A DNA stretch of 64,000 nucleotides from Flavonifractor sp. An92 (lineage in GTDB: Bacteria > Bacillota > Clostridia > Oscillospirales > Oscillospiraceae): the NCBI RefSeq assembly GCF_002159175.1, contig NZ_NFGZ01000002.1, forward strand, positions 1 through 64,000, read 5' to 3'. A model generated the notes under the pieces. It was not told where the DNA came from, did no database searches, and was given only the letters and a program-made list of their open reading frames with translations. A program made the translations under genes and the position numbers. This document shows positions 2,308 through 33,297 of the stretch, one piece after another. Each line of letters starts with the position of its first letter. Within the stretch, counting starts at the first letter, position 1.

Positions 2308-5300
2308 ATGAGCAGATTGAAGCACGTTCGCAGAGCGGTTTCCGGGCTTCTCAGCGTGGCCCTGACCGGCTCCCTTTGTACGACCTGGCTGCCCGCCGTG
2401 GCGGCCGCGGATACGGTGCAGACCGGCACCCAGACCCAGCAGGCTCAGGCCACCGGGTCCATCGCGCTGACCCTCGCCTTCGACCTGCCCCAGCGGCTGG
2501 ACGAGGTGAAGGACCGCGCCATCACCATGAACCTGACCGGGAACGGCAAGGACATCACCGTCTCCCTGAAGGACGGAAAGACCACCGGCGCGGAGGGCTT
2601 GAACGTCTCCGTGGAGGCGCTGAACCCCCAGAATGTGCCCCTGACCACCGAGCAGCAGATCGGCTATTATCGTGTCACGGTCTCCGGACTGCCCGCGGAT
2701 CGGGAGGCGGGCGAGGAGTATATGCTTACGGTGACCGGCACCGGCTATGCCGCCTGCACCCAGAGCGTGACCCTGCAGGACTACTCCCAGCACGTGATCC
2801 TGTCCACCGCCGACGGCACCTTCTCCCTGGGCGACTTTGACGGGGACGGCGCGGTGACCGAGGCCGACCGCACCATGCTGTCGGAGCAGCTGGGCAAGAC
2901 CACTGCCCTGGACACCTACGACCTGAACGGCGACGGTGTGGTGGACGTGACCGACCTGTCCTATGTGAACAAGCTGGTGGACGTGAGCGGCACCCCCAAG
3001 GTGCTGTCCACCGCCGCCATTGTCACCGCCACCGTGGAGAGCACGGACCTCATCGTGGAGGGCAATGTCTCCGACCTCTTTACCGGTGAGGAGACGGTGA
3101 CTCTCAAGCGCACCGAGGACGCGGAGGAGCTGGCCATCCCCATCACTCTGGAGAAGGCCACCGAGATGAGCGAGATCTCCATCACCTCTCCCAGCGGCAA
3201 CGGCGGCATTCAGGCCGGCACCGCTGAGGTGGTTTATCTGGACGAGAACAACCAGGAGCAGACCAAGAGCGTGGACTTTTCGGTTACCGCCCCTGATGGG
3301 GCCCACGCCATCAGCCGCACCGCCGGCCAGAACGTGGTGACCATCGACCTGGGCAAGAAGGTGCCTGTGAAGAAGGTCACCATCACCGTCTCCAAGGTGG
3401 AGGGCCAGAGCGGCAAGCCCGAGTTTGCCACTGTGACCCAGATCGAGTTCCTGAAGGACATCGTCTCCGACGCCGTGGCCGAGGACACCCAGGTGAAGAA
3501 CCTGGCCGCCACCGCGGGGGATGAGGAAGTCACCCTGATCTGGGACAGCGTGAAGAACGTCACCGGCTACACCGTCCAGTACGGCACCGGCAAGGATAAC
3601 CTGAACCAGAGCGTGACCAGCAGCACCACCAAGGCCACGGTCTCCGGGCTCAAGAACAACACCACCTATTACTTCCAGGTCGTCGCCACCAGCGGTGACT
3701 GGACGGGCACCCCCTCCGCGGTGCTCTCCGCCACGCCCGTGCCGGCCTCGGTGCCCGGCGCGCCCTCCGACCTGGTGGTGGAGGCGGCGGACACCGCGCT
3801 GCGCATCCGCTGGGGGAACACCAAGGACGCCACCTACTACCAGGTCTACTACCGGGAGCGGGGCGCGGAGCAGTTCCGGGCCTGGGGCGGCAATACCGCC
3901 TCCACCAGCGCAGTGATCACCGGCCTGACCAACGGCACCGAGTATGAAGTGGCCGTGAAAGCGGGCAATGTCCACGGCCTGGGCGGCTACTCCGCCATTG
4001 CGCTGGGCACCCCCGAGCGAGAGAGCTTCAACATGCCCGAGCTGCCCACCACCGGACGCCTTGAAACCAGCGAGATTACCTCCATTGTCATGGGGGATCG
4101 CAACAATGTGGACAAGAACCTGTGCCCCAACTTCGATGTGAACACCGACCTGACGGACAACGACCCCAACACCTACTGGGTGGCGGCCACCTGGTGGAAC
4201 AACAGCAGCATCACCTACACCTTTGCCTCCACGCACAGGATGAACTACCTGCTGCTGGTACCCTACCTGGACGCCGCCTATAAGAACCGCATCGACAACT
4301 ACACTATCACCCTCAAGGGCGAGGATGGGGAGACCCTGGCCACCTATTACCGCAGCGGTGTGAACATCACCGGCAGCGACTACTACATCGTCACCTTCCC
4401 TGAGACTGAGGGCGTCAAGAGCATCACCCTGGCGCTGGGCGAGAAGGCCGGCGGTCCCCGTGTGAGTATCTCCGAGATCGCTTTCTACGAGAGCGACACT
4501 CTGGCGGAGGACATCGCCAACCTCTTCTCCGACGGTACCTTTACCGCCCTGAAGGGCTCCGTGGAGGAGGCGGACATCACCGCCCTGAGCGATCGCCTCA
4601 CCACCCTGAGCAGCTTCTATATGGACCTGAACCGGCTCCGTGACGAGCTGAATCTGGCTTCCAAGCTGCTGGCGGAGGACACCAGCGCCCTGGGCCTGGT
4701 GAAGAACGACTTCCAGAGCCGCAGCACCACTGCCGCCGCCGATCAGGCCGCCGGCCAGACCGCCAGCGACTTCCAGCCCCTGGGCATCACCGCCCGGGCC
4801 GGCGCTACCGTGGCCATCTACGCCGAACTGCCCGACGACGCCACCGTCTATGTGGTGCCCACCCAGTTCTATGGTGAGTCCGGCGTGTGGAAGGGTACCC
4901 CCGTGGCCCTGGAGAACGGCCGCAACTACATCACCGTGGAGAAAATCGGCAGTCTCAGCGATACCCGCGGCGGTATGCTCTACCTGACCTACGGCGGCAG
5001 CAGACCCGAGGAGATCAAGCTCCAGATCCGGGTGCTCCAGAACGCCTGGGAGATGCCGGTGCTGGAGCTGTCCAATTGGTACGATCTGAGCGAGAGCGCC
5101 CGGAAGGACGCCATCCGCGCCTACGTCCAGACCCTGGAGACCTATGTCTCCGGTCTGTCCGGTGCGAACTTCAAGACCGACATCCGCAACGCCACCGAGA
5201 TCTCCACCCCCAGCGTGCTCCTGTCCCTCCCCGCCGATCAGGTCCTCACCGGCCTGAAGGGCGTGAACACTGATGTGGACGCCATGGTCCAGGCCCTGTA

Positions 5301-9940: not shown

Positions 9941-11353
9941 GCGCCAAACCACCGCCGCCTGGCTTCCGGTGAGACGGATCTCCCGGATGTACCGGGCGGC
10001 GGTCTGCTTTTTTTCCGCAAAGGACAGGGAAGAGAAGCGGGGCGGCCGCGCGGGTCGGGGAACACGGGCGCGGAGTGCCGTGCGCTCCCGTTCCAAGGCC
10101 TGAACGGCCCGGTCGATGTGGGCGGCGGTGACGGCACTGCTCTCGGCCAGGGCGGAAATGAGGCGGCTGATCTTTTCGTCGATGGCCCGGAGGGCCCGGT
10201 CGGTCTCCGGGTCCCGGGCGGGGGGCTCCGCCCCCTGGGTCCGCAGCCGTTCCTCCAGCTGGGCGGCCACGTCCCGCTCCAGGGCGGACAGGTCCACCCG
10301 GATGGAGGCCCGGCACACCTTCAGGTTGGAGCGGCCGCTGCACAGCAGGTAGCGCTTGCTCCCCTCCCGGTTGACTTTCACCGCGTAGCCGCAGGCGCCG
10401 CATTTCAGCAGGCCGGAGAGCCAGGTGTGCTTCCCACGGCCCTGGCCGCCCAGCTGTTGGTTGCGCTCCAGCTTGTACTGACAGGTGAGCCAGAGCTGGG
10501 CGGGGACCAAGCCCTCGTGGAGGCTCAGGGAGAAGCGGGGGCCGTCTCCCGCCCCGGCGCGGTCCCGCTTGCCCACCAGCAGTCCCCCGTGGCGGCCGTC
10601 GAAGCTTTCGGGGGGATGGGTGAGGGACACGCCACGGGCCTGGTAATAGCGATAGACCTCCCCGTCGGCCCGGACATAGACGGGGTTGTGGAGAATCCGG
10701 GAGAGAGCCACATTGTCCCACACCGCCCGCCGGGGGCCGGGGATACCGGCGGCGTTGAGAGCGCGGACCACGCTGCCCAGGGTGGCCTCCGGCGCGGCGT
10801 AGGAAGCGAACAGGGCCGCCGCCTGCCCGGCCTGTTCCCCGGGCAGAAGGGCGGGGAGGAGGTTTCCCTCCGGTCCGGGGAGCTTTCCCAGCTGAAACCC
10901 ATAGGGGGCCGGGCCGCCGGGCCAGGCCCCCAGTCCGGCGCGCTGATAGTAGTTGTCCTTCACCCGCTGGGCGGTGGTCTCCCGCTCCAGCTGGGCAAAG
11001 ACCATGATGATGTTCAGCATGGCCCGGCCCATGGGGGTGGAGGTGTCGAAGGTCTCGTGGATGGAGACGAACTCCACCCGGCAGCGGCTCAGGGTCTCCC
11101 ACAGCCGCCCGAAGTCGGCGATGGAACGGGAGAAGCGGTCCAGGCGGTACACCACGATCTTGCCGATGAGCCCCCGCTCCACGTCGGCCATGAGCCGCCG
11201 GAAGGCGGGGCGGTTGGTGTTCTTGCCGGAGTAGCCCCGGTCCTGGTAGACTTTGACGTTTTGGCCGGTCTCCCGGCGGCACAGGTCGATCTGGCCCTGG
11301 ATGGAGAGGCTGTCCGCCTTGTCCACCGACTGCCGGGCATAGATGGCGTCCAA
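8960..11353 (-). CDS. Large serine recombinase, C-terminus running on antisense to MATE
   Basis: Residues 1-150 are a resolvase-type catalytic domain (YARQSVDKADS near the start, YRLDRFSRS in the middle). A recombinase domain, a zinc ribbon (CGACGYAVKV and a downstream CSGRSNLKVC) and a coiled coil follow, as in large serine integrases. The start is TTG at 11353 with AAAGGGGGTGG upstream. Recognisable sequence ends near residue 471 (RLTGSQAAVVW), close to a usual C-terminus. The frame then lacks a stop and continues for about 326 codons to 8960, all antisense to MATE. That tail is surely not native: the original 3' end was probably lost in a rearrangement at about 9941. The enzyme may still fold. 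Confidence 0.75.
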   Translation of the reverse strand: MDAIYARQSVDKADSLSIQGQIDLCRRETGQNVKVYQDRGYSGKNTNRPAFRRLMADVERGLIGKIVVYRLDRFSRSIADFGRLWETLSRCRVEFVSIHETFDTSTPMGRAMLNIIMVFAQLERETTAQRVKDNYYQRAGLGAWPGGPAPYGFQLGKLPGPEGNLLPALLPGEQAGQAAALFASYAAPEATLGSVVRALNAAGIPGPRRAVWDNVALSRILHNPVYVRADGEVYRYYQARGVSLTHPPESFDGRHGGLLVGKRDRAGAGDGPRFSLSLHEGLVPAQLWLTCQYKLERNQQLGGQGRGKHTWLSGLLKCGACGYAVKVNREGSKRYLLCSGRSNLKVCRASIRVDLSALERDVAAQLEERLRTQGAEPPARDPETDRALRAIDEKISRLISALAESSAVTAAHIDRAVQALERERTALRARVPRPARPPRFSSLSFAEKKQTAARYIREIRLTGSQAAVVWRSEAAVEPVSLFVVDEEGQRTEGPGQRIDPVEHEDAVGEGHGDGEEAHPHHAPKDQHHRHGHNGTARAPEHGGDGVGEGQEEEEQRGRAGLGHADANDLRIGVEGGDEPGGEHEHRHADELRQHHGGPDTEAGALFGPLVLRGAQILADEGGKGHGEAGDGQEAEALDLGVGAHSGHGQLAEGVDVGLDHHVGKGDDGVLEAGGQTHADDLLQEPRRKGDPAQIQAAVLLPARELDEAQQGADQLGDDGGDGRSLHPHAEAGDEGDVQHDVDQGGYDQIVERVAAVPHGLEDTHEDVVHHKAHGPGEVDAQIGHRVPHDHLRGGHEP

Positions 11354-11413
11354 GCGGCGTCCACCCCCTTTCCCTCCAGCTTATGCGGAGGGAGCAGGGC
11401 CTTAGAAGCAAAC

Positions 11414-11455
11414 AACACCGCCCGGAGGGAAGCCATGCTCCCTCCGGGCGGCGTT
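11414..11455 (-). terminator. Terminator after the DUF1351 gene
   Basis: A strong hairpin (ACCGCCCGGAGGGA with TCCCTCCGGGCGGC) lies between the DUF1351 stop and the recombinase start. It ends the leftward radical-SAM operon. Confidence 0.7.
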
Positions 11456-11459
11456 TTCG

Positions 11460-12221
11460 TTATTCCACGCTTTCCCACTGAATTCCGGCGCGGGTGAGCA
11501 GCGCCAGGGCCTCCTCCAGCTGAGCCTGGGTGCCGGTGAGCTTCACCGTTTTGGAGAGGACCGGGCCGTCTCCGGCGGGCGGGGGCGTGACGGGACGCTC
11601 CGCCGCCTCCAGCTTCTCCCGGTAGGTGTCCAGGCCGTCAGCATTCAGGGTCTCCAGATATTTGGCGGTCAGGGCTCCGGCGTGGCTCCCGCCGGTGGTG
11701 CGGATCTGCTCCAGGTTCCAGGCCGCGGCGGCGATCTTGGCGTCCACCGCCGCCTTCCAGGTCTTGGCCGAGGTGGTCTTGTTGAGCCACTTGCGGTCCA
11801 GGAAGGCGGGGCTGTCCAGCACCTGCCGGGCCATGCTGCCCAGGGGGGCGCTCTTGTCCAGGAAGTAGGCGGCGATCTCCCCCCACTTGGCCATCTTGTC
11901 CCGCTCGTCCATCTGGTCCACGAAGGACTTGATCTGGTCCAGGGGGGCGTCGATCATGGCCAGGAGCTCCTTCACCTGGGCCTCGAAGTCGTTGTAAGGG
12001 GCCAGATAGGCCCGCTTGATCTCCTTCCGGCGGTCGTCGATGTCCTTGCGCAGGCGGGTGAGCTCCTTCTTGTCGGCCTTGGCCTCCGCCAGGGACTCCT
12101 CGCTGTACACCACGTTCTCATAACGGGCCAGGACGGCGGAGAGGGCCTCCTTCATCTCGGCAAAGTTGTCAATGGACACCAGACCCGGCTCCTGCCGGGA
12201 GATCAGCTGCAATTCATCCAT
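11460..12221 (-). CDS. DUF1351 domain protein
   Basis: The 253-residue protein is soluble and helical, with a long charged coiled coil at about 45-90 (SLAEAKADKKELTRLRKDID) and a tryptophan-containing middle region (KWLNKTTSAKTWKAAV). These are features of DUF1351, a family mostly seen in phages and prophages of Firmicutes, often near recombination genes; its function is unknown. AGGAAAGGA precedes the ATG. No other phage structural genes are present here. It is the last gene of the operon carrying the radical SAM protein, so it may have been co-opted. Confidence 0.7.
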   Translation of the reverse strand: MDELQLISRQEPGLVSIDNFAEMKEALSAVLARYENVVYSEESLAEAKADKKELTRLRKDIDDRRKEIKRAYLAPYNDFEAQVKELLAMIDAPLDQIKSFVDQMDERDKMAKWGEIAAYFLDKSAPLGSMARQVLDSPAFLDRKWLNKTTSAKTWKAAVDAKIAAAAWNLEQIRTTGGSHAGALTAKYLETLNADGLDTYREKLEAAERPVTPPPAGDGPVLSKTVKLTGTQAQLEEALALLTRAGIQWESVE

Positions 12222-12254
12222 GTTGGTCGGTTCCTTTCCTACGAAAATAGAGGG

Positions 12255-12800
12255 TTACAGGTCCGCCTCGTCCCCATCCAGATCATCCTCATCCAGGAAG
12301 GAGCGGTCCAGCTCCTTCTCATCCGGGACGCTCAGATAGCCGCCGTGGGCGCCGTCGAGATCATCCTGGTATTCCCCAGAGGCGATGTGGATGTAGCGGT
12401 CCTGAAGGCGGTCATAATAATAGGTCGACTGATAGCAGTTGTTATCGCTATAAATCTCGATCCCTTCCACCCGGATCTGGGCGATGTCATCCATGGACTG
12501 GATCTTTTTCTTGACGGAGTTGAAAAAGCGGGTCCGCTTGCCCTTGGCAACGGAGTCGCCGCCCTCCAGCTTCACCGACTGGCCCAGCAGATCCAGCATG
12601 GCGTCCACCGTGGGGCATTTGGCCAGGCGCTTGGGGCTGAGGTTGGCGTCGATCTCGCCGTAACAGCCGGGGTCGCCATAGTAGTCCTCATAGGCGTTGA
12701 GTTCCCAGTTGAGGTACTTCTTATTTTTTAACTGAATGGACACCGTGAGCATAAAGCTGCTGGAGCTGGAATTGGTGACAAAATCGGTACGGAATTTCAT
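12255..12800 (-). CDS. Uncharacterised protein with N-terminal TDFVTNSSSSSF motif (copy 1)
   Basis: The 181-residue protein starts with MKFRTDFVTNSSSSSF, exactly the first 16 residues of the protein encoded at 13910-14539, after which the two diverge completely. The body is rich in Tyr, Asp and Glu with a very acidic C-terminus. No Cys cluster, signal peptide or membrane segment beyond the short start is visible. The Ser-rich N-terminus is one I associate with many unexplained Firmicute proteins. AAAGGAG precedes the ATG. The shared N-terminus on both sides of a radical SAM gene suggests a recognition tag or leader for that enzyme, which is inference. Function unknown. Confidence 0.72.
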   Translation of the reverse strand: MKFRTDFVTNSSSSSFMLTVSIQLKNKKYLNWELNAYEDYYGDPGCYGEIDANLSPKRLAKCPTVDAMLDLLGQSVKLEGGDSVAKGKRTRFFNSVKKKIQSMDDIAQIRVEGIEIYSDNNCYQSTYYYDRLQDRYIHIASGEYQDDLDGAHGGYLSVPDEKELDRSFLDEDDLDGDEADL

Positions 12801-12815
12801 GAAAATGCTCCTTTC

Positions 12816-13889
12816 TCAGGTGGTGCGCTGGCTGCGGCGGCACAGCACGATCTCTGGTTTCAGGGGACAGCCGCCCATGCACACCTCCCGCTGGGGGCAG
12901 GTGGGACAGGCGGCGCGCAGGGGAGCGCGGAAGGCGTCAAATTGCGGGCTGTCCCAGGCCTCCTGGATGCTGTGGTCCCGGAGGGAGACGCCGTAGCGCC
13001 GCTCCTGGTCGAAGCTGCACGGCAGCATCACCAGATCGGCGGAGATGTAGCAGGAGAAGCGGGCACCCTCGCAGGTGTCCAGGGCGGCCAGCTCCAGATT
13101 GGCGCAGTGGTTCACCACGCCTGGGATGGTACAGCTGTCCAGTCCCAGCTTGTAGGGGAGGGTGTTGTGGTCCAGAAGGGCGAAAAAGCGCGCCAGCCGG
13201 GGGTCGTCGGGGTCCAGGACATTTTCCCGGCTGCCCTGGCCCACCGGCTTGTGGAGGAGGAACACCACGGCGTTGATGCCCGCCGGGAAGGTGTTGTGCT
13301 CCAGGCGGTCCAGAGCCTCGTCGATGGAGTTGCGGCCCAGGACATAGTGGATGTTGGTGCGCACCCCGGCGGCGAGCAGCATCTGAATGGCGTCCAGGGT
13401 GTAGGAGCTGCGGTACCAGCTCACCGCCACCGCGCCGCAGTACCGGGCGCACAGGGCGGCGTGCTCCTCTGTGAGGCCGAAGCCGGAGGTGGTGAAGTTG
13501 GGGACGATGTGGTGCTCCCGGCACAGGGCCAGGATCTCCCCAAAGTGCTCGTGCATGTCCGGGTCGCCCCGGCCGCCCAGGGCGAACTGGTTCACCTTGC
13601 CCGCGCACTGGCGGACGATTTCGGCGAAATCCTCCAGGGCCATGTTGGGGGCCTCCACGGTGCGGCCGCTCTGGTAGCAGCCGATCCCCGCCTTGGCGCA
13701 CAGGCCGGACTTGCCGTGGGCACAGTGGCCCATGATCCCCACGTCGATGAGGTGGGGGAAAGAGGCCATGAAGGGGTCCACCCCGGTGTCCTTTCTGTCC
13801 TCCAGGATACCGGTGCGGAGGTAGGCCCCGGTCTGGTCGTCAAAGAAGGTGAGAAAGTGGTATTTGGAGTCATATATGCGGTGTCTCAA
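12816..13889 (-). CDS. Radical SAM/SPASM protein with atypical cysteine spacing
   Basis: The 357-residue protein has an N-terminal cluster motif with Cys56, Cys64 and Cys71 (GHCAHGKSGLCAKAGIGC). The spacing is C-x7-C-x6-C instead of the usual C-x3-x2 pattern. A TIM-barrel-like body follows (NQFALGGRGDPDMHEHF, then NFTTSGFGLTEE). The C-terminus is a SPASM-like set of cysteines (MLPCSFD, then CPTCPQREVCMGGCPL, then VLC), expected to hold auxiliary Fe-S clusters as in peptide-modifying enzymes. The start is TTG with AGGAGG nine bases upstream. It lies between the two NSSSSSF proteins and is co-transcribed with a 53-residue peptide gene, so peptide or protein modification is likely. Substrate unknown. 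Confidence 0.82.
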   Translation of the reverse strand: MRHRIYDSKYHFLTFFDDQTGAYLRTGILEDRKDTGVDPFMASFPHLIDVGIMGHCAHGKSGLCAKAGIGCYQSGRTVEAPNMALEDFAEIVRQCAGKVNQFALGGRGDPDMHEHFGEILALCREHHIVPNFTTSGFGLTEEHAALCARYCGAVAVSWYRSSYTLDAIQMLLAAGVRTNIHYVLGRNSIDEALDRLEHNTFPAGINAVVFLLHKPVGQGSRENVLDPDDPRLARFFALLDHNTLPYKLGLDSCTIPGVVNHCANLELAALDTCEGARFSCYISADLVMLPCSFDQERRYGVSLRDHSIQEAWDSPQFDAFRAPLRAACPTCPQREVCMGGCPLKPEIVLCRRSQRTT

Positions 13890-13909
13890 GGCGGTTTTCC
13901 TCCTGCTTG

Positions 13910-14539
13910 TTACGAAAAGAGATCAAAGGAACACAGCTCCATGCCGGGGACTGTGTCATCGGAACCGAAGTCCTCGTCTTCGCCCTCCTCCGATTCTCCC
14001 CAATACTCCCCGCCGATGTGGATCGCCACGGCGCCCAGCTCGTCCAGGGTGGGGACGGTGTCGGTGCAGAGGGCGGTGAGCTGAGGGAGCGCCCCCAGGT
14101 AGCGGCCGAAGAGAAGGTTGTCCACTCCGCTCAGGGCCTGCTCCACGGCCTCCCGGGTGGGCTCGGTCCCGGCCAGAATGGAAAAGGCCGGGTCCTTGGC
14201 CAGAACCTCCAGCAGGGCCTGGGGCTCCAGCGCGTTCTGGGCAAAAGCGGCCGCGGCGCACAGGGATTCCGGGCGGTAGGGGCTCCGGCCCAGCTCGTCG
14301 CTGGAGATCAGGTGGAGCAGCGCCCCTGCCAGGTCGGCGGAGGTGTGCAGGGGCTTGTCCTGATAGAAGAGCTCCCCGTCTTTCCGGCACAGGCGGCCCT
14401 CCAGGAATTGACCGGCGTCCTCGGTCAGGTCCAGCTCGTCGATGAAACGGGAGGAGGCCTGGCCGTCCCGGGTGGTCAGGCGTACCGCCACAAAGGAGCT
14501 GGAGCTGGAATTGGTAACAAAATCGGTGCGGAATTTCAT
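13910..14539 (-). CDS. Uncharacterised protein with N-terminal TDFVTNSSSSSF motif (copy 2)
   Basis: The 209-residue protein shares residues 1-16 with the protein at 12255-12800; the codons differ at several silent positions, so the protein sequence is what is conserved. The rest is unrelated to copy 1: an acidic, helical body with a Glu/Asp tail (EDEDFGSDD). No catalytic motif or Cys cluster is recognised. A GGAGG site precedes the ATG. It lies directly upstream of the radical SAM gene. I infer that the common N-terminus is read by a shared partner, most simply the radical SAM enzyme, but it could be a localisation or ribosome-level signal. Confidence 0.72.
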   Translation of the reverse strand: MKFRTDFVTNSSSSSFVAVRLTTRDGQASSRFIDELDLTEDAGQFLEGRLCRKDGELFYQDKPLHTSADLAGALLHLISSDELGRSPYRPESLCAAAAFAQNALEPQALLEVLAKDPAFSILAGTEPTREAVEQALSGVDNLLFGRYLGALPQLTALCTDTVPTLDELGAVAIHIGGEYWGESEEGEDEDFGSDDTVPGMELCSFDLFS

Positions 14540-14551
14540 AGCCCGTTCCTC

Positions 14552-15091
14552 CTACTCGTCCCAGTCGTAAGGATCAAAGACCTCGATGTACTCACTCACA
14601 TCCCCGAAGGCCTCCAGGAAGTCCTGAAACTGCTGGAACTGGGCCTGGGGGGAGAATTCCTCGTCCTCTTCGTCCTCAAATTCTTCTTCATCCTCCAGCT
14701 CGCCCCGCAGGGCCAGGATGGTGTCGGTATCCAGATCAAATTGCTCCACGTCGGCACTGCCGGGGTAGGAGTAGAAATAGGAACTGCCGTACTCGTCGTC
14801 CAGATACTGGATCTCCAGCAGCATTCCCACCTGGGGGACCGCCTTCATGAGCTCGTCGGCGATGTCGGTGACGCCGTAGAGGCTGCCGGAATCCTCCTGG
14901 CAGAGGGCCAGCTCCGCCGTTCCGCCGGCGTAGGGGCTGGCGGGGGAGAGGCCGGCCTGCTCTTCCCAGAGCTGGCGGAATTCCTCGCTGATCCAGCGGG
15001 AGGCGGCGGCCTGTTCGCTGTGCAGATAGGCGTCCAACCGGGTGAGCTCCTCCTCGCTTCCGCGGAAGAGGAAGGTAAACATTCCCTGCAT
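14552..15091 (-). CDS. Acidic hypothetical protein
   Basis: This 179-residue protein of unknown function has an extremely acidic stretch at about 130-147 (ELEDEEEFEDEEDEEF) and an aromatic-rich middle (YGSSYFYSYPGSADVEQFD). It has no signal peptide or membrane segment. AGGAGG is well placed before the ATG at 15091. Its start overlaps the control region of the 53-residue gene's end (gap 11 bp), and it is followed by the copy-2 NSSSSSF gene 12 bp later, so it is tightly built into the operon. The acidity is shared with both NSSSSSF proteins. Confidence 0.65.
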   Translation of the reverse strand: MQGMFTFLFRGSEEELTRLDAYLHSEQAAASRWISEEFRQLWEEQAGLSPASPYAGGTAELALCQEDSGSLYGVTDIADELMKAVPQVGMLLEIQYLDDEYGSSYFYSYPGSADVEQFDLDTDTILALRGELEDEEEFEDEEDEEFSPQAQFQQFQDFLEAFGDVSEYIEVFDPYDWDE

Positions 15092-15102
15092 GATGATTCC
15101 TC

Positions 15103-15264
15103 CTATTTCATTCCGTACCGGTGTGCCAGGTCCTCCAGCTCCTCATCGTCGGCGCGGCGGATGGCGTCCTCGTCCAGCAGCATGGCGGGCATGCCTGCGG
15201 CAGCACCCGCCCACACCTCGTCCAACAATTTCCGGCGCAGGTCCTCGTTCTTATCGTCCGGCAT
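15103..15264 (-). CDS. 53-residue small protein, possible peptide substrate or adaptor
   Basis: The ORF starts at an ATG with AAAGGAG upstream and ends in TAG 11 bp before the next gene. It is charged and helical at both ends (MPDDKNEDLRRKLLDEVW; RRADDEELEDLAHRYGMK) around a small-residue core (AGAAAGMPAMLL). No Cys is present. Size, operon position and nearness to a radical SAM/SPASM gene fit a ribosomal peptide precursor or a small partner protein; neither is shown. Spacing and the ribosome site make it likely to be real. Confidence 0.55.
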   Translation of the reverse strand: MPDDKNEDLRRKLLDEVWAGAAAGMPAMLLDEDAIRRADDEELEDLAHRYGMK

Positions 15265-15282
15265 GAAAAACACTCCTTTCGG

Positions 15283-15708
15283 TCAAAACAGGGTCTTTTC
15301 GTTCTCGCTGAACAGCTTGTCGTTGATGGTGTCCAGCCCGGTGCCATGGAGGATGCCGTGGCTGATGATGGCATCCCGGCGGTTTTTGGGGTAGAGCTGG
15401 GCGTAGGTGGACAGCCGCAGCAGGCACTGGGTCTGTTCCAGGGTGGCGTCCAGACCGATACAGAGGCAGAGCAGCCGGTCCCGGGAGGGCTTGCGCCGCC
15501 CGGCAAAGACCTGGTGGAGATACACCTCGCTCATCCCGGACTGGCGGGCCAGGGCTGCCTTGGACAGGCGCTTGCGCTGGTAGAGCTGGCCCAGCAGTTC
15601 GGTGACGCTTTGGTTGGAAAAGTAGCGGCGGTTTTCCCGCAGGTAGGTGTCGATGTTGCTCTGCTCCATGAGCTCCTGGCTCAGGTCGCCAGTCGACTTG
15701 TACTCCAT
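15283..15708 (-). CDS. XRE-like helix-turn-helix protein
   Basis: The 141-residue protein has a Cro/C1-type HTH at about 45-75 (LSKAALARQSGMSEVYLHQVFAGRRKPSRD), preceded by a helical segment and followed by a helical tail. It is the first gene of the leftward operon and divergent from a Ser/Thr kinase-like gene. HTH/kinase pairs like this recur in Clostridia, and the XRE protein is often thought to be a kinase target or partner; that is not established here. It probably binds the 104-bp divergent region and regulates both operons. Confidence 0.8.
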   Translation of the reverse strand: MEYKSTGDLSQELMEQSNIDTYLRENRRYFSNQSVTELLGQLYQRKRLSKAALARQSGMSEVYLHQVFAGRRKPSRDRLLCLCIGLDATLEQTQCLLRLSTYAQLYPKNRRDAIISHGILHGTGLDTINDKLFSENEKTLF

Positions 15709-16521: not shown

Positions 16522-17790
16522 GTGAGCGGGCGGACCAAGCGCTGCCCCCACTGCGGCGGGCAGCTGGCGGAGGAGGCCGCCTTCTGTCCCTACTGTGCCC
16601 GGGACATCCGCATCCGCCGGAGCGTATCGGTCCCCCTCCGCCGGTGGCTGCGGCCGGTCAAACGGGCCGCGATCCTGATGGTTTTTCTGGCGCTGGTGCT
16701 GGTGGCCGCGGCGCTCTATGAGGTACTGACCCCCAATGTGTACGACGCCTGGGGGGAGCTCACCTACACGATGGACGGAAACCCCTACCACCTGGTCCTC
16801 ACTTTCCGCAACGACACCACGCCGGAGCCGGAATGCACCGTGAAGGTGGAGGAGGGGGAAAATTACGAGCGGACCTCCAAGCTCTTCATCACCCATGTGG
16901 AGACCGGGGTGGACGCGGGGCGGATGTTCGACCAGCAGATCGCATCCACCTATGTCCGGCTGATCCAGCCCGAGAACAGCCCCTCGCCGGTCACCTGGGA
17001 GCAGCCAGTCTATCAGGGCACTCCCGCCATGGAGGGACTGATGCGCTCCTATCTGACCTTTACGGACCGGAGCCTGGGCCCGGTGGAGGTGGAGTGGACC
17101 CTTTCCATGAAAAACGGCGACACCATCCGCCTGCATCAGAAGCTGAGCTTTGAGCCGGTGGAGACCCTGGACTTTTACCCCGAGGACTACCCCATGGACA
17201 CCATGGAGGACCTGCGGGCCCTGGTGGACCGGATTGAGGCCGAGGTGCCCCTGCCCACGGTGGTGAATCTGTATCTGCCCCCGGTCTGGTATGAGGGAGG
17301 CCTCACCCTGGACGGGCGGCCCATCAACCTCTATGGGAGCGTGGACGGGCAGAACAGGCGCACCGCCTTCCTGGGAGCGGTGGCGGTGACGCCGGAGGAC
17401 GGCAGGCAGAGCATCGTGGAAAACGTCGAATTCCGGGGCGACGGCACCGGCACCGGCCTCACAGTGGAGGCGGACGGCAGGATACGGAACTGCGGCTTCT
17501 ACGGCTGGGAGACCGGGCTGCTGGTGGGTGGCGTACACTGGGCCGACCCGGTGGGCTGCTGGTTTGAGGACAACGGCGTGGGTTTCCGTTTTGACAGCGC
17601 CGGAGACTACTTCAATTACAGCTATTTTGAGGGAAACACCTTCCTCCGCAATGAGATCGCCGTGGACCTGGTGCGGGTGCCCAGAGCCAAAGAGATCAAC
17701 TTCCGGAACTGCCGCTTCTCTGACAACGGCGGCAACATCCGCAATCCGTCCGGCTACCCCATCGACATTTCCTATGCTACCTTTGAATGA
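16522..17790 (+). CDS. Zinc-ribbon, single-pass membrane protein with beta-helix exodomain (paralogue 1)
   Basis: The 422-residue protein has an N-terminal double-CxxC zinc ribbon (Cys8, 11, 22, 25), a basic linker and one membrane helix at about 49-68. A long extracellular part follows, with a beta-sandwich-like region (about 75-210) and a right-handed beta-helix (about 215-422) marked by repeated short strands such as NVEFRGDGTGTGL and NCGFYGWETGL. GTG at 16522 follows the kinase stop by one base with GGAGG upstream. Topology is inferred as zinc ribbon inside, helix outside. Paralogues follow at 18729 and 19976. Function unknown; an envelope or ligand sensor feeding the kinase is plausible. 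Confidence 0.75.
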   Translation: MSGRTKRCPHCGGQLAEEAAFCPYCARDIRIRRSVSVPLRRWLRPVKRAAILMVFLALVLVAAALYEVLTPNVYDAWGELTYTMDGNPYHLVLTFRNDTTPEPECTVKVEEGENYERTSKLFITHVETGVDAGRMFDQQIASTYVRLIQPENSPSPVTWEQPVYQGTPAMEGLMRSYLTFTDRSLGPVEVEWTLSMKNGDTIRLHQKLSFEPVETLDFYPEDYPMDTMEDLRALVDRIEAEVPLPTVVNLYLPPVWYEGGLTLDGRPINLYGSVDGQNRRTAFLGAVAVTPEDGRQSIVENVEFRGDGTGTGLTVEADGRIRNCGFYGWETGLLVGGVHWADPVGCWFEDNGVGFRFDSAGDYFNYSYFEGNTFLRNEIAVDLVRVPRAKEINFRNCRFSDNGGNIRNPSGYPIDISYATFE

Positions 17791-17804
17791 AAGGACTGAC
17801 CTCT

Positions 17805-18725
17805 ATGGAATATAAATGCCCCCACTGCGGCGCGGCTCTGCCGGAAGACGCCTCCTTCTGTCCCCACTGCGCCCGGAGCGTCCGGGACCGGAAAAACGCC
17901 AAGGCCCCCGCCCATCTGTGGCGGAAGGGGCTGAAATGGGTGCTGGTTCTGGCCCTGGTGGCTGCGGTGGGCGCGGGCACCTGGGCGCTGGGGTCTGAGC
18001 CGGCTGCCGGCGGGCTGCCCGCCGGGGAGATCACCCCGGTGGTCTTTCAGGAGGACGAGAACGGCATGGTCAAAGTGACCCCCGACCAGCTGCGGGAGTA
18101 CTTTCCCACCCTCACCGGCATCAATTTCGACACCACCTCCACCACCAGCGACAACATCGACGACTACCTGATGGAAAATCTCCAGCTGGCCCACCTGGTG
18201 TCCTCCCGGGGGGCCGCCGGTACCGACGAGGAGTGGGGCATGTTCAGCACCCGCAGCTCCGGTACCCGGGTGTGCCTCCTTATGTTCGATCGCAACACCC
18301 ACCTGATGGGCTACTTCGTCGGGGAGCCCATCCAGGTGTCGGAGGGACAGTGGCAGATGGACGTGGTGTCCTGTGACTACGACTTCACAGAGCTCTATGA
18401 GGAACAGCTCGCCGCCTTCGAGGGAAGCTGGGAGGAGGACTTTTCCAACTACATCCCGCCGGAGGAGATCGGGAGCTCCGGCGCGGTGTGGTTCCTGAAC
18501 GGCTACAACACCGGCAAGGGCCCGGTGCTGCGGGAGGACGACGCCCAGATCTACCACCTGTGGGCCCAGCTCCACGGGCCGGAGCCGGAGCGCCAGTGCC
18601 GGGAGATCGAGCGGCTGGAGGAGTTCCTGCCCGACGAGGGCCGGTGGAAGTGCTATCTGCTGCTGGATGCAGACTACGACCTGCTGGGCTACACCATGCT
18701 GGACTACCAGGGGAACGGAGGCTAA
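17805..18725 (+). CDS. Zinc-ribbon membrane protein with distinct exodomain (paralogue 2)
   Basis: The 306-residue protein opens MEYKCPHCGAALPEDASFCP, matching its neighbours, with a second CxxC, a membrane helix near residues 40-60 and an exported C-terminal region. That region is not a beta-helix but a different alpha/beta domain of unknown type. The start at 17805 was chosen because it aligns with the other paralogues and has AAAGGA nine bases upstream; an earlier ATG at 17787 overlaps the previous stop. The shared front end with a different outside domain suggests that the outer parts vary by ligand while the inner ribbon serves a common partner. Confidence 0.72.
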   Translation: MEYKCPHCGAALPEDASFCPHCARSVRDRKNAKAPAHLWRKGLKWVLVLALVAAVGAGTWALGSEPAAGGLPAGEITPVVFQEDENGMVKVTPDQLREYFPTLTGINFDTTSTTSDNIDDYLMENLQLAHLVSSRGAAGTDEEWGMFSTRSSGTRVCLLMFDRNTHLMGYFVGEPIQVSEGQWQMDVVSCDYDFTELYEEQLAAFEGSWEEDFSNYIPPEEIGSSGAVWFLNGYNTGKGPVLREDDAQIYHLWAQLHGPEPERQCREIERLEEFLPDEGRWKCYLLLDADYDLLGYTMLDYQGNGG

Positions 18726-18728
18726 GCC

Positions 18729-19961
18729 ATGGAATACAAATGTCCCCACTGCGGGGCGGACCTGCCGGAGCACGCCGCCTTCTGTCCCCACTGCGCCCGG
18801 GATATCCATCCCCGGAGAGAGGCGAAAAAGCCGGTCCCCCTGCTGAAAAAGCTGCTGCTGGGCCTGCTCATCCTGGCGGTGTTGGCCGCCGTGGGGACCG
18901 GGCTGTGGCTGGCCTTTGGGCCCAAGAGCTACGACGGCTACGGGGAGGTCCGCTACGGGGACTGGCAGATCCTGCTCGCCCTCAATGCGGATTCCTACGC
19001 TCCTGCACCGGAGGTGACGATTCCAGGCGAACCGGAAGGCCAGTACCGGGTCCCCTCCCGGCTGTTCATCAACGACGCCCATACCGGCGAGGACGCCTCG
19101 GAGGCATTTTTGGCGGAGGTGGAGGCGGTGACGGCGGAGTTCACCGGCCAGGAGGACAGCCCTTCTCCCTTCGTATGCTCCGAGCCCGCCTACAATCCCG
19201 GCGCCCCGGAGTGTCCCCTCCTCTCCCTCATCGACTTTACCGGGGAGAGCGGAACGGCGGAGCTGGTTTGGACCTTTTCCATGAAAAATGGGGACACCCT
19301 TACCCTACGCCAGACCTATGAGGTGATCCCTATTCCGGTGTACGACTACTACCCGGAGGAGCACCCCATGGACACGGCGGAGGAGCTACAGGCCCTCATC
19401 GACTCCGTCAGCGGCCAGGTGGAGGAAGCGGCCGTGGTGAACCTTCACCTGCCTCCCATTACCTATGAAGGGGGCGTCACCATCCAGGACCGGAGCCTGA
19501 ACCTGTACGGCTCCACCGAAGAGGCCGGAAACCGCACCACCTTTGCCGGTCCGGTCCGGGTGCTGGCTGCTTACAACATCACCTATTTTTACGACATGGA
19601 CTTTGTGGGGAACGGCGGCGGCACCGGCCTCTCCGGCTCCGCCCCCTTTCGGGCCACCAACTGCACCTTCACCGGCTGGGACACCGCCGTGCTGGCCTAC
19701 GGCACCAGCTGGGCCAACGTCATCGGCTGTACCTTCCAAAAGAACGGCATCGGCTTCCACTTCGACAGCACCGGAGAGTACGCCAACCACTCCATGTTCA
19801 ACGACAATCTCTTTGAGGGGAACGAGATCGCGGTGCAGCTGGACAATGTGCCCACCGACGTGGCCCTCAACTTCCAGGGCTCGGTGTTCCGGGGCAACGG
19901 GCAGGATATCGTGAATTCCTGTCAGCAGTCCCTGGATACGTCCCAGGCCATTTTTGAGTAA
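18729..19961 (+). CDS. Zinc-ribbon, single-pass membrane protein with beta-helix exodomain (paralogue 3)
   Basis: The 410-residue protein has the CPHCGADLPEHAAFCPHC ribbon, a basic stretch, and a membrane helix at about 39-60 (LLKKLLLGLLILAVLAAVG). Its exodomain is colinear with paralogues 1 and 4: both halves and the linking sequence around FSMKNGDTLTLRQTYEV are recognisable in all three. The C-terminal beta-helix shows regular turns (NCTFTGWDTAVL, GCTFQKNGIGFHF). It starts three bases after the previous stop, so it is translationally coupled. It is probably exported by its internal signal-anchor. Confidence 0.75.
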   Translation: MEYKCPHCGADLPEHAAFCPHCARDIHPRREAKKPVPLLKKLLLGLLILAVLAAVGTGLWLAFGPKSYDGYGEVRYGDWQILLALNADSYAPAPEVTIPGEPEGQYRVPSRLFINDAHTGEDASEAFLAEVEAVTAEFTGQEDSPSPFVCSEPAYNPGAPECPLLSLIDFTGESGTAELVWTFSMKNGDTLTLRQTYEVIPIPVYDYYPEEHPMDTAEELQALIDSVSGQVEEAAVVNLHLPPITYEGGVTIQDRSLNLYGSTEEAGNRTTFAGPVRVLAAYNITYFYDMDFVGNGGGTGLSGSAPFRATNCTFTGWDTAVLAYGTSWANVIGCTFQKNGIGFHFDSTGEYANHSMFNDNLFEGNEIAVQLDNVPTDVALNFQGSVFRGNGQDIVNSCQQSLDTSQAIFE

Positions 19962-19975
19962 AGGAGAGCACCCCC

Positions 19976-21235
19976 ATGGAACAAAAATGTCCCCACTGCG
20001 GCGCGGACCTGCCGGAAAACGCCGCCTTCTGTCCCCACTGCGCCAAAGACATTCATGGACGAAAAAAGCCCGGGCGGCCGGTCCCCCTGCAAAAGAAACT
20101 GCTGCTGGGCCTGCTGGCGCTGGTGGTGGTGATCGCCGCAGGGGCGGGGCTCTGCTACCTGAACCGGCCCTATGAGCCCCAGGAGTACGACGGGGAGGGC
20201 GAGGTGTACTATGAGCGCGGGGACAAGACCTACCAGCTCCTGGTGGCCTGGCCCGACGACCGCACCGCCCCCGCCGCCGACATCTACCACCAGGGCGCGC
20301 CGGACGAACAGTACCGCTGGCCCTCCCGGTGGTACGTCAACGACGCCCTCACCGGCACCGACGCCTGGGAGGAGTTCGAGCCCCTGGTGGAGAAGGTCAC
20401 CGTGGAGGTGGTCCAGGACGAGAACGCCGCGGATGAACTCACCGCCGGGGAGCCCAGCCACCAGGAGGACTACTCCCCCGACGCCGCCATGGTGTCCTCC
20501 CTGGACTTTACCGGCAATTCCGGTGAGCCCCAGGTGGTGTGGACCGTTCAAATGAAGAACGGCGACCTCATTCGGGTGCGGCAGAACATCCACATCACCC
20601 CCGTCATCACCCACGAGTACCACTGGCAGGACTACCCCATGAGCACGGCGGAGGAGGTGCAGGCCCTGCTGGACCAGATCGCCAACCAAGTCCCGTCCTC
20701 TGACCAGGTGCTCCTCTACCTGGCCCCGGGGACCTATGAGGGGGACCTGGCCTTCCACCGGTCCTACGACCTCTACGGCAGCACCGACGAGGGCGGGGCG
20801 CGCACCGTGTGGAAGGGCTCGATCTCCATGGAGGACGGGCACTACGAGTGGATCAACTACTTTTATGACATCGACTTTGTGGGAGACGGCACGGATATTG
20901 GCATCAACACCCCGGTGAAGGCCTGGCCCGTGGGCTGCACCTTCACCGGCTACCAGACCGGCGTGCTGGTCCGTGGGCAGGCCTGGGTGAACGTCACCGA
21001 GTGTACCTTCACCGGCAATGAGGTGGGCTTCCACTTCAATTCCACCGGCCAGTCCGCCTCCGACACCCGCTACTTCGACAACACCTTTACCGGCAACGGC
21101 ACCGGCATCCTCCTGGAGAGCGTGCCTACCGACATCACCATGGTCTTTGACGGCAGTACCTTCTCCGGCAATGGCACCGACCTGGACAACCGCTGCGGCC
21201 AAAGTGTGGACACCTCCAACGCCGTCTTTTCCTGA
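19976..21235 (+). CDS. Zinc-ribbon, single-pass membrane protein with beta-helix exodomain (paralogue 4)
   Basis: The 419-residue last gene of the operon has a CPHCGADLPENAAFCPHC ribbon, a membrane helix at about 42-62, and the same two-part exodomain as paralogues 1 and 3. Beta-helix turns (GCTFTGYQTGVLV, ECTFTGNEVGFHF) are very regular. AAAGGAG precedes the ATG. The high similarity to paralogue 3 in the ribbon and helix suggests recent tandem duplication. A strong terminator follows. Confidence 0.75.
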   Translation: MEQKCPHCGADLPENAAFCPHCAKDIHGRKKPGRPVPLQKKLLLGLLALVVVIAAGAGLCYLNRPYEPQEYDGEGEVYYERGDKTYQLLVAWPDDRTAPAADIYHQGAPDEQYRWPSRWYVNDALTGTDAWEEFEPLVEKVTVEVVQDENAADELTAGEPSHQEDYSPDAAMVSSLDFTGNSGEPQVVWTVQMKNGDLIRVRQNIHITPVITHEYHWQDYPMSTAEEVQALLDQIANQVPSSDQVLLYLAPGTYEGDLAFHRSYDLYGSTDEGGARTVWKGSISMEDGHYEWINYFYDIDFVGDGTDIGINTPVKAWPVGCTFTGYQTGVLVRGQAWVNVTECTFTGNEVGFHFNSTGQSASDTRYFDNTFTGNGTGILLESVPTDITMVFDGSTFSGNGTDLDNRCGQSVDTSNAVFS

Positions 21236-31631: not shown

Positions 31632-33155
31632 TCACAGGGCTTGCGGAGAGCAAGTATAGATGATCTCGATGTGCCCGGCTTCAAAGATCCGGATCTGCTG
31701 GATGGTCTCCGCCACGGTCAGGCGGTCCAGAGTGGTCAGCTTTCCATGCTGGAGCAGGGACTGGACCCAGGGAGAGAGAACCGATTCTGCCGTTTCCTCA
31801 AACTGCCGGAACTGGGCGGTCAGCTCCTTCTCCTGCCGCTCGTAGTCCGCCTGATAGCGCTGAAAATCCTCCCGGCGGAGCAGGCCCTCCCGGTAGTCCT
31901 CATAGGCCGCCTTTTTCAGCCGGTAGAGCCGCGCCCGCCCCAGCTCCAGCCGCTGGCGCGCTTCGGCGTCCTCTCTGGGGACCTCGTTTCCCTCCTCCTC
32001 GGCCAGCGCCCGGAGGTCCTGCACCGACGCGAAGATCTGGTTCAGGTCATCCAGCACGATTTGCTCCAAAATGGCGTGGGAGATGCGGTGACGGGTGCAG
32101 ACTGTGGACCCATACCGCTGATAGGAGCCGCAGGTGTAATCGATCCCGCCCCCGCGCCGGGTCTTGACCATGGCCCGCCCACAGTCCCCACAGCGGAGAA
32201 ACCCGGCAAAGGGGCTCTGTTCCTGGGCAAAGCCGGGCTGCCGGGTCCGTCTGCCCAGCAGCGCTTGGACCCGCTCCCACTGTTCCGGCCCAATGATGGC
32301 CTCGTGGGTGTCCGAAACCACGGTCCACTCCGAGCGGTCCCGCTGGACGGCCTTGCCGTGCAGAGTGGGGCGGGTATTCCGCCCCTGCTCCATGCACCCG
32401 GCATACATCCGGTTTTGCAAAATGCGGTGGATGGTGGCGTAGGTCCAGTAGGTGGTCTGCTCCAGCTTCCGCCCGTTGTGGTAGCGCTCCCCCAGCAGGC
32501 GCTTGTACTCGCTGGGGCTGGGGACCCCCTCGGCGTTGAGGAGCTTGGCGATTTTCACCTTTCCGTACCCCTGCTCAAAGAGGTCGAAGATCCGCCGCAC
32601 CACCTGGGCTGCGGCGGGATCGATGAGCAGATGGTTGTGGTCGACCGGGTCCTTGCGGTAGCCGTAGCTGGGAAAGGCCCCCACGAATTCCCCCCGCTGC
32701 TGCTTGGCGCGGATGGCGGAGCGGACCTTGTCCGAGATGTCCCGGGCGTATTGGGTATTAAAGAGGTTTTTCATGGGCAGGAGCAGGTCGTAACGCCCTT
32801 GGGCGCTGTCCACATGGTCGTTGACGGCGATGAAGCGCACTCCCTGGGCGGGAAAAACCCGCTCCAGGTAGCGCCCCATCTCGATGTAATCCCGCCCGAA
32901 GCGGGACAGGTCCTTGACCAGGACGCAGTTGACTTTCCCGGCCCGGATGTCTGCCTCCATGCTGCGGAAGGCGGGGCGATCAAAGTTGGTGCCGGTGTAG
33001 CCGTCGTCCTGGTAAAAGTCCACCAGATGCAATTCCGGGTGATTCTTGATGTACTGCTCCAGCAGCTTGCGCTGGTTGGCGATGCTGTCGCTCTCCGCCT
33101 TGTCGCCGTCCTCCCGGGACAGGCGCAGATAGCCCGCCGTGTTCCAGACCTCCAT
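31632..33155 (-). CDS. Large serine recombinase
   Basis: The 507-residue protein has a resolvase catalytic domain (1-150; GYLRLSREDGDKAESDSI near the start, VKDLSRFGRDYIEMG in the middle), a recombinase domain (about 165-280) and a zinc ribbon (CGDCGRAMVK, then CGSYQRYGSTVC). A long coiled coil (about 370-440) and a short tail end it: the complete layout of a large serine integrase. AAGGAGG eight bases before the ATG at 33155 fixes the start. A 38-residue ORF ends 25 bp upstream. It lies inside the 32.6-kb insertion and is its best candidate integrase, although it sits 6 kb from the nearer end. It could also mark a smaller nested element. Confidence 0.92.
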   Translation of the reverse strand: MEVWNTAGYLRLSREDGDKAESDSIANQRKLLEQYIKNHPELHLVDFYQDDGYTGTNFDRPAFRSMEADIRAGKVNCVLVKDLSRFGRDYIEMGRYLERVFPAQGVRFIAVNDHVDSAQGRYDLLLPMKNLFNTQYARDISDKVRSAIRAKQQRGEFVGAFPSYGYRKDPVDHNHLLIDPAAAQVVRRIFDLFEQGYGKVKIAKLLNAEGVPSPSEYKRLLGERYHNGRKLEQTTYWTYATIHRILQNRMYAGCMEQGRNTRPTLHGKAVQRDRSEWTVVSDTHEAIIGPEQWERVQALLGRRTRQPGFAQEQSPFAGFLRCGDCGRAMVKTRRGGGIDYTCGSYQRYGSTVCTRHRISHAILEQIVLDDLNQIFASVQDLRALAEEEGNEVPREDAEARQRLELGRARLYRLKKAAYEDYREGLLRREDFQRYQADYERQEKELTAQFRQFEETAESVLSPWVQSLLQHGKLTTLDRLTVAETIQQIRIFEAGHIEIIYTCSPQAL

Positions 33156-33180
33156 GGCTGCGCCTCCTTTTTCGGAACGT

Positions 33181-33297
33181 TCAGACACGGTGGGCCCGGA
33201 TCAGGGCGCGGAGCAGGGCCTCCGGGGTCCGGCTGCCCGTAAAACGGCGGATGATCCGCCACTTTTTCTGCGTCACTGCTGTGTTCTGTACCGGCAT
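33181..33297 (-). CDS. 38-residue basic protein upstream of the recombinase
   Basis: The ORF starts at an ATG with AAGGAGGGAG six bases upstream and stops 25 bp before the recombinase start. The product is very basic and helical (KKWRIIRRFTGSRTPEALLR). Small basic proteins next to serine recombinases can be directionality factors or simple leader peptides; no family was recognised. It shares the recombinase promoter. Confidence 0.5.
   Translation of the reverse strand: MPVQNTAVTQKKWRIIRRFTGSRTPEALLRALIRAHRV

Follow-up and report, generated by a model that had tools for sequence, protein, structure and literature searches.

Why should two otherwise unrelated proteins, encoded on either side of a radical SAM/SPASM gene, begin with the same 16 residues? 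The question is raised by a locus in Flavonifractor sp. An92 (assembly GCF_002159175.1, contig NZ_NFGZ01000002.1), of which we analysed positions 1 to 64,000, a stretch of 64,000 nucleotides here called the window. A preliminary description of this DNA had reported the identical N-termini, their silent codon differences, the lack of relation between the two proteins otherwise and the enzyme gene between them, and all of this held. We found that an opening sequence of about MKIRTDFVTNSSSSSF, below called the tag, is common to many otherwise unrelated bacterial and phage proteins. We suggest that the enzyme probably carries out tag-directed radical SAM modification of these proteins, in that it would bind the N-terminal tail and most likely modify a position within it. 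The genome-wide pairing of tag and enzyme, selection on the tag at the peptide level, unrelated protein bodies, a shared strand, a maturase-type fold of the enzyme and a disordered tail in one structural model support this reading.

The shared N-terminal tag

The two tagged proteins of the window, A and B, both open with MKFRTDFVTNSSSSSF, identical in 16 of 16 residues. The copies differ silently in three of the 16 codons (R4, V8 and S15), and at S15 the codons TCC and AGC belong to two different Ser codon classes. The bodies that follow show no significant similarity to each other (blastp E 0.49). Allowing up to three mismatches, a degenerate tag pattern of 29 bases has two matches in the window; 100 shuffles gave none.

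We collected 265 distinct full-length tagged proteins. The tag is N-terminal, about 16 residues long and has the consensus MK[IVF][RK]xDFVTNSSS[ST]S[FY]. S11 and S12 each make use of all six Ser codons, and together with the silent differences between the window copies this indicates selection on the peptide, not on the DNA. The pattern used to compile the list demands K2, R or K at position 4, a residue set at positions 6-9 and N10-S11-S12, and the invariance of these positions among the 265 proteins is therefore imposed. K2 is not absolute, as the tag MRIRTGFVSNSSSTSF of locus L244 shows. A tblastn search of phages with a 24 amino acid (aa) tag peptide alone gave chance-level matches only (two records, E 5), short Ser-rich queries being weak or filtered.

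Pairing of tag and enzyme

The groups sampled as such were the phylum of the window and Chloroflexota; counts of genomes rest on profile E-values and not on the residue pattern. Among 398 genomes of the phylum, the tag profile (E<=1e-4) matched ten and the enzyme profile (E<=1e-20) the same ten (Fisher p 4e-20), and at each of the 11 tag places the fetched locus, about 3 kb at most, included the enzyme. The order was scanned in 295 genomes; its 12 strong tag places (E<1e-7) belong to seven of them, and all seven have the enzyme. A further 23 weaker tag matches (E 0.003-0.09) in the order genomes were excluded as chance. Fetching 20 weak-match loci (L027-L046) gave a look-alike in six, five of these inside frames; the look-alike of L039, MRKTHFTTNSSSESW, opens a 27-codon frame. 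Two of 201 Chloroflexota genomes contain the tag, both with the enzyme. One genome (G069) has two enzyme genes.

The pairing is also seen in viral sequences. In the tag-first scan all 32 loci lie on contigs with the enzyme, 29 of them with the enzyme in the locus itself (one cut by the contig end) and three with it on the same contig. A viral scan with the window enzyme alone gave no relative; the viral enzyme relatives needed a profile search, which gave 247, of which 80 loci were kept (L069 and 79 new ones). The tag is in the locus at 75 of these 80. Viral loci and contigs are partly near-copies: distinct enzymes number 65 in the 79 new loci, and 61 of these enzymes have a tag. Of the viral loci lacking a tag, L118, L133 and L146 lie on short contigs or where a contig ends.

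Starting from the enzyme in bacteria, we found a tagged protein in 15 of 17 loci, the window's included (five loci from a search of 60 genomes, among them the window, and 12 from a search of genome contigs). Of the two loci without one, L005 matches the enzyme only weakly and in part (E 1e-4), and the contig of L017 ends about 220 bases past the enzyme gene. In 95 loci, picked for having both genes in one locus and including three overlapping copies of the window locus (L001, L021 and L196), all 265 tag genes are on the strand of the enzyme gene, and in 53 loci a tag gene is at most 100 bases away from it. One phage locus (L115) has eight tagged genes.

The shared N-terminus had at the outset been read as a recognition tag for modification or targeting, with the expectation that proteins bearing it would be found near this radical SAM subfamily beyond chance. 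The expectation is borne out by the ten shared genomes of 398 and the 32 of 32 viral loci, and as an inference the role of the tag in recognition or modification is well supported. Motif and enzyme were also together in plasmid and phage records found via the enzyme alone. In the 295, 398 and 201 genomes, scanned with profiles from enzyme-linked tags, the motif was not widespread without the enzyme.

The radical SAM/SPASM enzyme

The window enzyme exceeds the cut-off of the SPASM model PF13186 (24.1 bits, cut-off 21.5) and falls just under that of TIGR04085 (26.4 bits, cut-off 27); the radical SAM model PF04055 gives 25.4 bits, below its cut-off of 29.5. The canonical radical SAM three-Cys motif is CxxxCxxC. 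The cluster loop of the window enzyme is C56-x7-C64-x6-C71, in which C56 and C71 are invariant in 28 rows. Other conserved Cys residues are C253, C273, C291, C328-x2-C331-x5-C337-x3-C341, which is the SPASM CX2CX5CX3C pattern, and C350.

An AlphaFold2 (AF2) model of the enzyme from a 27-row alignment has a mean predicted local distance difference test score (pLDDT) of 92.8 and a predicted template modelling score (pTM) of 0.91. Its nearest folds are SuiB (Z 26.6, root mean square deviation 3.5, 323 aligned), SkfB (Z 24.0) and anSME (Z 22.1), followed by ChlB with leader (Z 21.3) and PqqE (Z 21.2). These are all peptide- or protein-modifying enzymes. Radical SAM enzymes top the rows of both Foldseek and VIA-align, and a profile search with the enzyme puts SkfB first (E 3e-5). 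As modelled, the enzyme is a radical SAM barrel fold of the peptide-maturase type. Neither Pfam nor NCBIfam gave an RRE or PqqD match for the window enzyme, whose modelled barrel is preceded by about 45 N-terminal residues.

Among relatives the cluster loop varies between Cx7Cx6C, Cx5Cx3C and the canonical Cx3Cx2C, and residue 4 of the tag varies with it. Over 95 rows, enzymes with Cx7Cx6C go with 40 R and 3 K, those with Cx5Cx3C with 17 R and no K, and those with the canonical loop with 19 K and 6 R; the remaining 10 rows are other or unread. One extra Cys lies within the loop in 14 of the Cx5Cx3C rows. K4 is thus nearly confined to enzymes with the canonical loop, and the reverse is not so. 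Distances between tags correlate with distances between enzymes (Mantel r 0.48, reached by none of 2000 permutations), and the K/R label changes five times on the tree versus 21.5 times when shuffled.

Some viral enzymes lie inside open reading frames (ORFs) of about 620-790 aa (L063 2644-4980, L166 4438-6774, L167 4429-6789 and L168 1458-3317), which suggests fusion to a big extra N-terminal part.

The tagged proteins

The 265 proteins have a median length of 141 aa (10-90% range 111-206). With the first 20 residues removed, clustering sorted 262 of them into 66 body families, three having been dropped as too short. Eighteen families have four members or more, and none of their 153 pairs reaches an hhalign probability of 50, the highest being 13.6. 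The bodies include BRCT proteins and proteins of about 480-580 aa.

The largest family (family 0, 29 members including RB16p111 of phage RB16) gave a 25-row model with a mean pLDDT of 93. Residues 1-10 have a mean pLDDT of 50, each later block of ten residues has at least 91, and the first strand starts at residue 13. In this model the tag tail is disordered. It is at the same time the most conserved part, which points to recognition by a partner. Fold searches with it gave nothing convincing in PDB (best E 0.39) or in BFVD (best E 0.25), and a second look gave Z of at most 3.8.

The loci of the long tagged proteins keep an order of their own. In L247, L249, L252 and L016 a protein of about 285-357 aa is followed by the enzyme and then by the tagged protein of about 480-580 aa. 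L248 has the same order, with one stop counted by the search within its enzyme match. Where the sequence extends further, in L016, L247, L248 and L249, a protein of about 312-324 aa is encoded after the tagged one; that of L247 is weakly similar to EspG, an ESX chaperone (25.9 bits, cut-off 27). In L242 and L243, the genes that come after those of the enzyme and the tagged protein resemble, judged from their sequence only, genes for components of iron ABC transporters, and the tagged proteins have Cys-containing C-terminal tails.

Phages, plasmids and STAND operons

Escherichia coli phage RB16 and Enterobacter phage phi5 each encode the enzyme and, about 20 kb off, two tagged proteins (MKIRSGFVSNSSSSSF). 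In the phage collection, 172 records match the enzyme, 174 match RB16p106 and 175 match RB16p111, and the organism make-up, compared as totals, is nearly the same. The body of RB16p106 (L082 1084-1551) matches PHROG 132, labelled head-tail adaptor (3e-10), so that this tag may be attached to a phage family that has untagged members as well. In Vibrio phage D479 a tagged protein is encoded about 1.4 kb ahead of the enzyme gene.

Seven plasmid records have enzyme relatives, and in all five that were opened the tagged protein comes directly before the enzyme. Several plasmids belong to a branch with a kept order: a STAND NTPase, a middle protein of 120-145 aa, a tagged protein of 131-138 aa and the enzyme. 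L229 shows only an unannotated frame of 80 aa in the middle position. The branch is found in plasmids of Agrobacterium, Rhizobium and Rhodobacter (L229, L230, L235 and L236, with annotated SMEK proteins; L237 repeats L236), in the phylum of the window (L238, L239 and L240) and in Chloroflexota (L244). All six STAND proteins scanned (L229, L235, L238, L239, L240 and L244) match Avs2 models at 2e-16 or better. Their N-termini are SMEK in L229, L235 and L244 and trypsin-like in L238 (above the Pfam cut-off) and in L239 and L240 (just below it). A metallo-beta-lactamase (MBL)-fold protein is encoded ahead of the STAND gene in L238 and L239, with matches to models of LmuA (6e-78 and 2e-55) and Avs1a (4e-77 and 2e-42). 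Among the proteins of the window scanned, none in the operon is a STAND protein.

In L230 the SMEK gene (2530-5143) seems to be split into two overlapping ORFs compared with L235 and is possibly broken. DISARM-like (DrmA, DrmD), methyltransferase and EcoRII-like genes lie within 5 kb of the enzyme in L009 (2-4877) and L010 (3761-7395), and WYL regulators lie near it in L008 and L011; we claim no enrichment for either.

Proposed mechanism and alternatives

We infer the action of the enzyme on the tag, the residue changed and the effect of the change as follows. The N-terminal stretch of about 16 residues would be a flexible tail joined to many unrelated bodies, and the enzyme, usually one per genome, would act on it in cis or in trans. 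The radical modification would most likely take place inside the tail, with T9-N10-S11-S12-S13 as the likely zone, and K2/R4, D6 and F7 may be docking or second-site residues. The body would then give the function, which may be specific to the locus: phage proteins, partners of Avs-like STAND NTPases, BRCT proteins and perhaps ESX-like proteins. A bolder version, which we consider doubtful, is that dozens of unrelated proteins have a universal N-terminal tail rewritten by one enzyme, which perhaps staples the tail to conserved C-terminal residues (W, HH, CNHMG), and that phages use the products in infection and STAND-type operons use them in immunity.

Several points weigh against modification within the tag. 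All support is computational, and neither the catalytic residue nor the product can be read from the sequence. The match between tag residue 4 and cluster spacing is loose, and with only five label changes on the tree the independent events of covariation are few. In L179 and L190 the enzyme gene is flanked by at least 3.4 kb on each side, and no tag lies there. One of the 32 viral tags, a perfect one, is on a frame of only 21 codons (L081 6001-6066, MKIRTDFVTNSSSSSFVTFHI), 0.6 kb before the cut enzyme gene. The tag profiles were built from loci found via the enzyme, and unlinked variants of the tag could thus be missed.

The tag might instead be a docking leader, as in ribosomally synthesised and post-translationally modified peptides (RiPPs), with the enzyme modifying the protein elsewhere, probably at the extreme C-terminus. 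We consider this rather unlikely, although several families do have conserved extreme C-termini: family 0 ends in SHH (last H in 29 of 29), another family in CNHMG (8 of 8), and the tagged protein ends in Trp in eight of eight STAND-type loci. His as last residue is found in 6 of 66 family representatives versus 4 of 484 other ORFs of viral loci (p 3e-4), and Gly within the last four residues in 26 of 66 versus 111 of 484 (p 0.006), several patterns having been tried. The fold of the enzyme also resembles that of SuiB, which is a Lys-Trp cross-linker. Against these stand the large families 1, 2, 4, 6, 7 and 10, which have no clear C-terminal conservation, and proteins A and B of the window, which do not resemble the conserved ends. 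No peptidase that could free a core was recognised among the neighbours scanned, save the trypsin-like domain fused to some STAND proteins. We also ruled out a universal partner motif at the C-terminus, as conserved ends occur in some families only.

Improbable, in our view, is a role of the tag in targeting or assembly, as a peptide that some other factor reads, while the enzyme makes something else in the same pathway. The great differences between the bodies would be expected of a targeting signal, and some tagged genes, as in RB16, are distant from the enzyme gene. But the set of neighbours changes from one locus type to another, so that no third gene emerged as a constant companion, though no systematic test was made; and tag and enzyme sequences covary, if in few independent events.

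Common descent, with the tagged proteins as one fast-evolving family and the N-terminus as its slowest part, is very improbable. Many bodies do go on with a hydrophobic F[IV][IV], which starts a beta strand in one model, and there may be a remote likeness between P0001 and P0002 (21% identity with the tag counted in). None of the 153 family pairs reached the threshold, and the BRCT-bearing and about 500-aa bodies are plainly unlike the rest; paralogy of all tagged proteins is thus unsupported by profile comparison. The tail is also disordered in the model of family 0, so that the fold does not explain its conservation.

A signal at the DNA or RNA level, such as a recombination site or translation element repeated at the gene starts of tandem operons, has next to no probability, and a DNA-level explanation of the repeat is ruled out by codon use, that is the silent differences and the six Ser codons at S11 and S12.

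The locus in the window

The genes of the locus are listed in Table 1. The operon content as given in the preliminary description stands in part: the DUF1351 gene lies downstream, and the genes for the acidic and the 53/56-aa proteins lie upstream, but the XRE regulator gene does not belong. In the genus relatives G006 and G007 the operon is missing, but the genes of both flanks are conserved: a MATE gene on one side, XRE and kinase genes on the other (identity to the window 70-72% for XRE and 78-85% for the kinase). As XRE and kinase keep their place in these genomes, XRE is backbone, and it was ruled out as an operon member. The accessory stretch also includes a large serine recombinase that had not been described.

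Table 1. Features of the tag and enzyme locus, in coordinates of the window
Feature	Position	Strand	Remarks
Radical SAM/SPASM maturase	12816..13889	-	357 aa, TTG start; between two tagged proteins
Tagged protein A	13910..14539	-	209 aa; residues 1-16 are the tag
Tag of protein A, MKFRTDFVTNSSSSSF	14492..14539	-	
Tagged protein B	12255..12800	-	181 aa; residues 1-16 are the tag
Tag of protein B, MKFRTDFVTNSSSSSF	12753..12800	-	
Acidic protein	14552..15091	-	179 aa; upstream, same gene run; membership uncertain
Small protein	15103..15273	-	56 aa from GTG, 53 from ATG; upstream; membership uncertain
DUF1351 protein	11460..12221	-	PF07083 121 bits, cut-off 27.8; downstream, in same insert
Large serine recombinase	9970..11353	-	Resolvase, Recombinase and Zn_ribbon_recom all above cut-off; end of accessory stretch
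Accessory stretch	about 9942..15282		Missing from this site in genus relatives G006 and G007
XRE gene	15283-15708		Backbone, outside the system

In scans with family models, the sole match of protein A is phrog_7397 over residues 1-21 (E 0.3), and the acidic protein has none below E 0.1. The body of protein B has relatives in L010 and L020, both tagged and adjoining the enzyme. L011 and L012 also have small ORFs upstream of the enzyme, with which the small protein shares 28% and 25% identity, respectively; for the acidic protein we found no relative beyond the window's own genome among the collected loci.

Two other features of the window may be mentioned. After the kinase gene, four consecutive genes (16522-21235) have a common zinc-ribbon-like start, CPHCGxxLxExAxFCPxCA, and differing C-terminal parts; they are a separate paralogous array. 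The ORF at 31632-33188 resembles, by its letters alone, a second large serine recombinase.

Range and significance

If modification within the tag is correct, an N-terminal tail of 16 residues, portable between bodies, directs radical chemistry on whole proteins. Tag and enzyme are present in cultured T4-like phages (RB16, RB43 and relatives), large phage contigs, Clostridia, Chloroflexota and alphaproteobacterial plasmids, and many unannotated 'hypothetical' genes would gain a common, testable biochemical hypothesis.

A full-text literature search, with most subscription papers and bioRxiv preprints outside its reach, found no paper on the tag and enzyme system, and its match for the letters of the motif was a paper on food peptides; novelty is not proven. 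Radical SAM genes in phages have been noted before. A passage on an Aeromonas giant phage speaks of many such genes and calls this highly unusual (PMC12390700), one on a T4-like marine phage gives 12 (PMC5332604), and a passage of PMC3468402 mentions QueE.

Comparison with known systems

In phages, parts of the system are already on record as families. The RB16 enzyme, RB16p156, and RB16p111 match PHROG 7293 (phage radical SAM) and PHROG 7397 (phage protein) end to end, and the window enzyme matches PHROG 7293 at 4e-21. The two are listed as separate families of unknown function, and the tag is not named there.

One branch resembles AVAST/Avs, bNACHT and Lamassu systems in that the genes for tagged protein and enzyme follow that of an Avs-like STAND NTPase. 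We know of no Avs system with a radical SAM gene or a tagged protein.

The enzyme anSME is a SPASM enzyme that acts on Ser or Cys in a short motif of a folded protein. The window enzyme is similar in fold, as the Z score above indicates, whereas the motif here is N-terminal, Ser-rich and common to unrelated proteins; the anSME model TIGR03942 gives 11.5 on the window enzyme versus a cut-off of 349.

The closest likeness in fold is to the radical SAM/SPASM maturases of RiPPs (SuiB, SkfB, CteB, PqqE and ChlB), which align over most of the model (Z 21-27); with SuiB and SkfB the alignment begins at residue 1 of the enzyme model. Such maturases recognise their substrate via its N-terminal part. 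The window enzyme differs from them in its unusual Cx7Cx6C cluster spacing, and it gave no RRE match in Pfam or NCBIfam. Among the seven window proteins scanned there was no RiPP leader peptidase or exporter; in other loci a part of the neighbours was scanned, again with no leader peptidase recognised, and L242 and L243 have the transporter-like genes mentioned above. RiPP clusters have a short precursor with leader and core. The substrate candidates here are whole proteins (181 and 209 aa in the window, median 141 over the 265), from 66 body families and often several per genome.

In the prochlorosins of ProcM and in the proteusins, one enzyme serves a single conserved N-terminal sequence, to which hypervariable C-terminal parts are joined. 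In comparison, the variable parts of the tagged proteins are long and are probably folded proteins rather than short cores.

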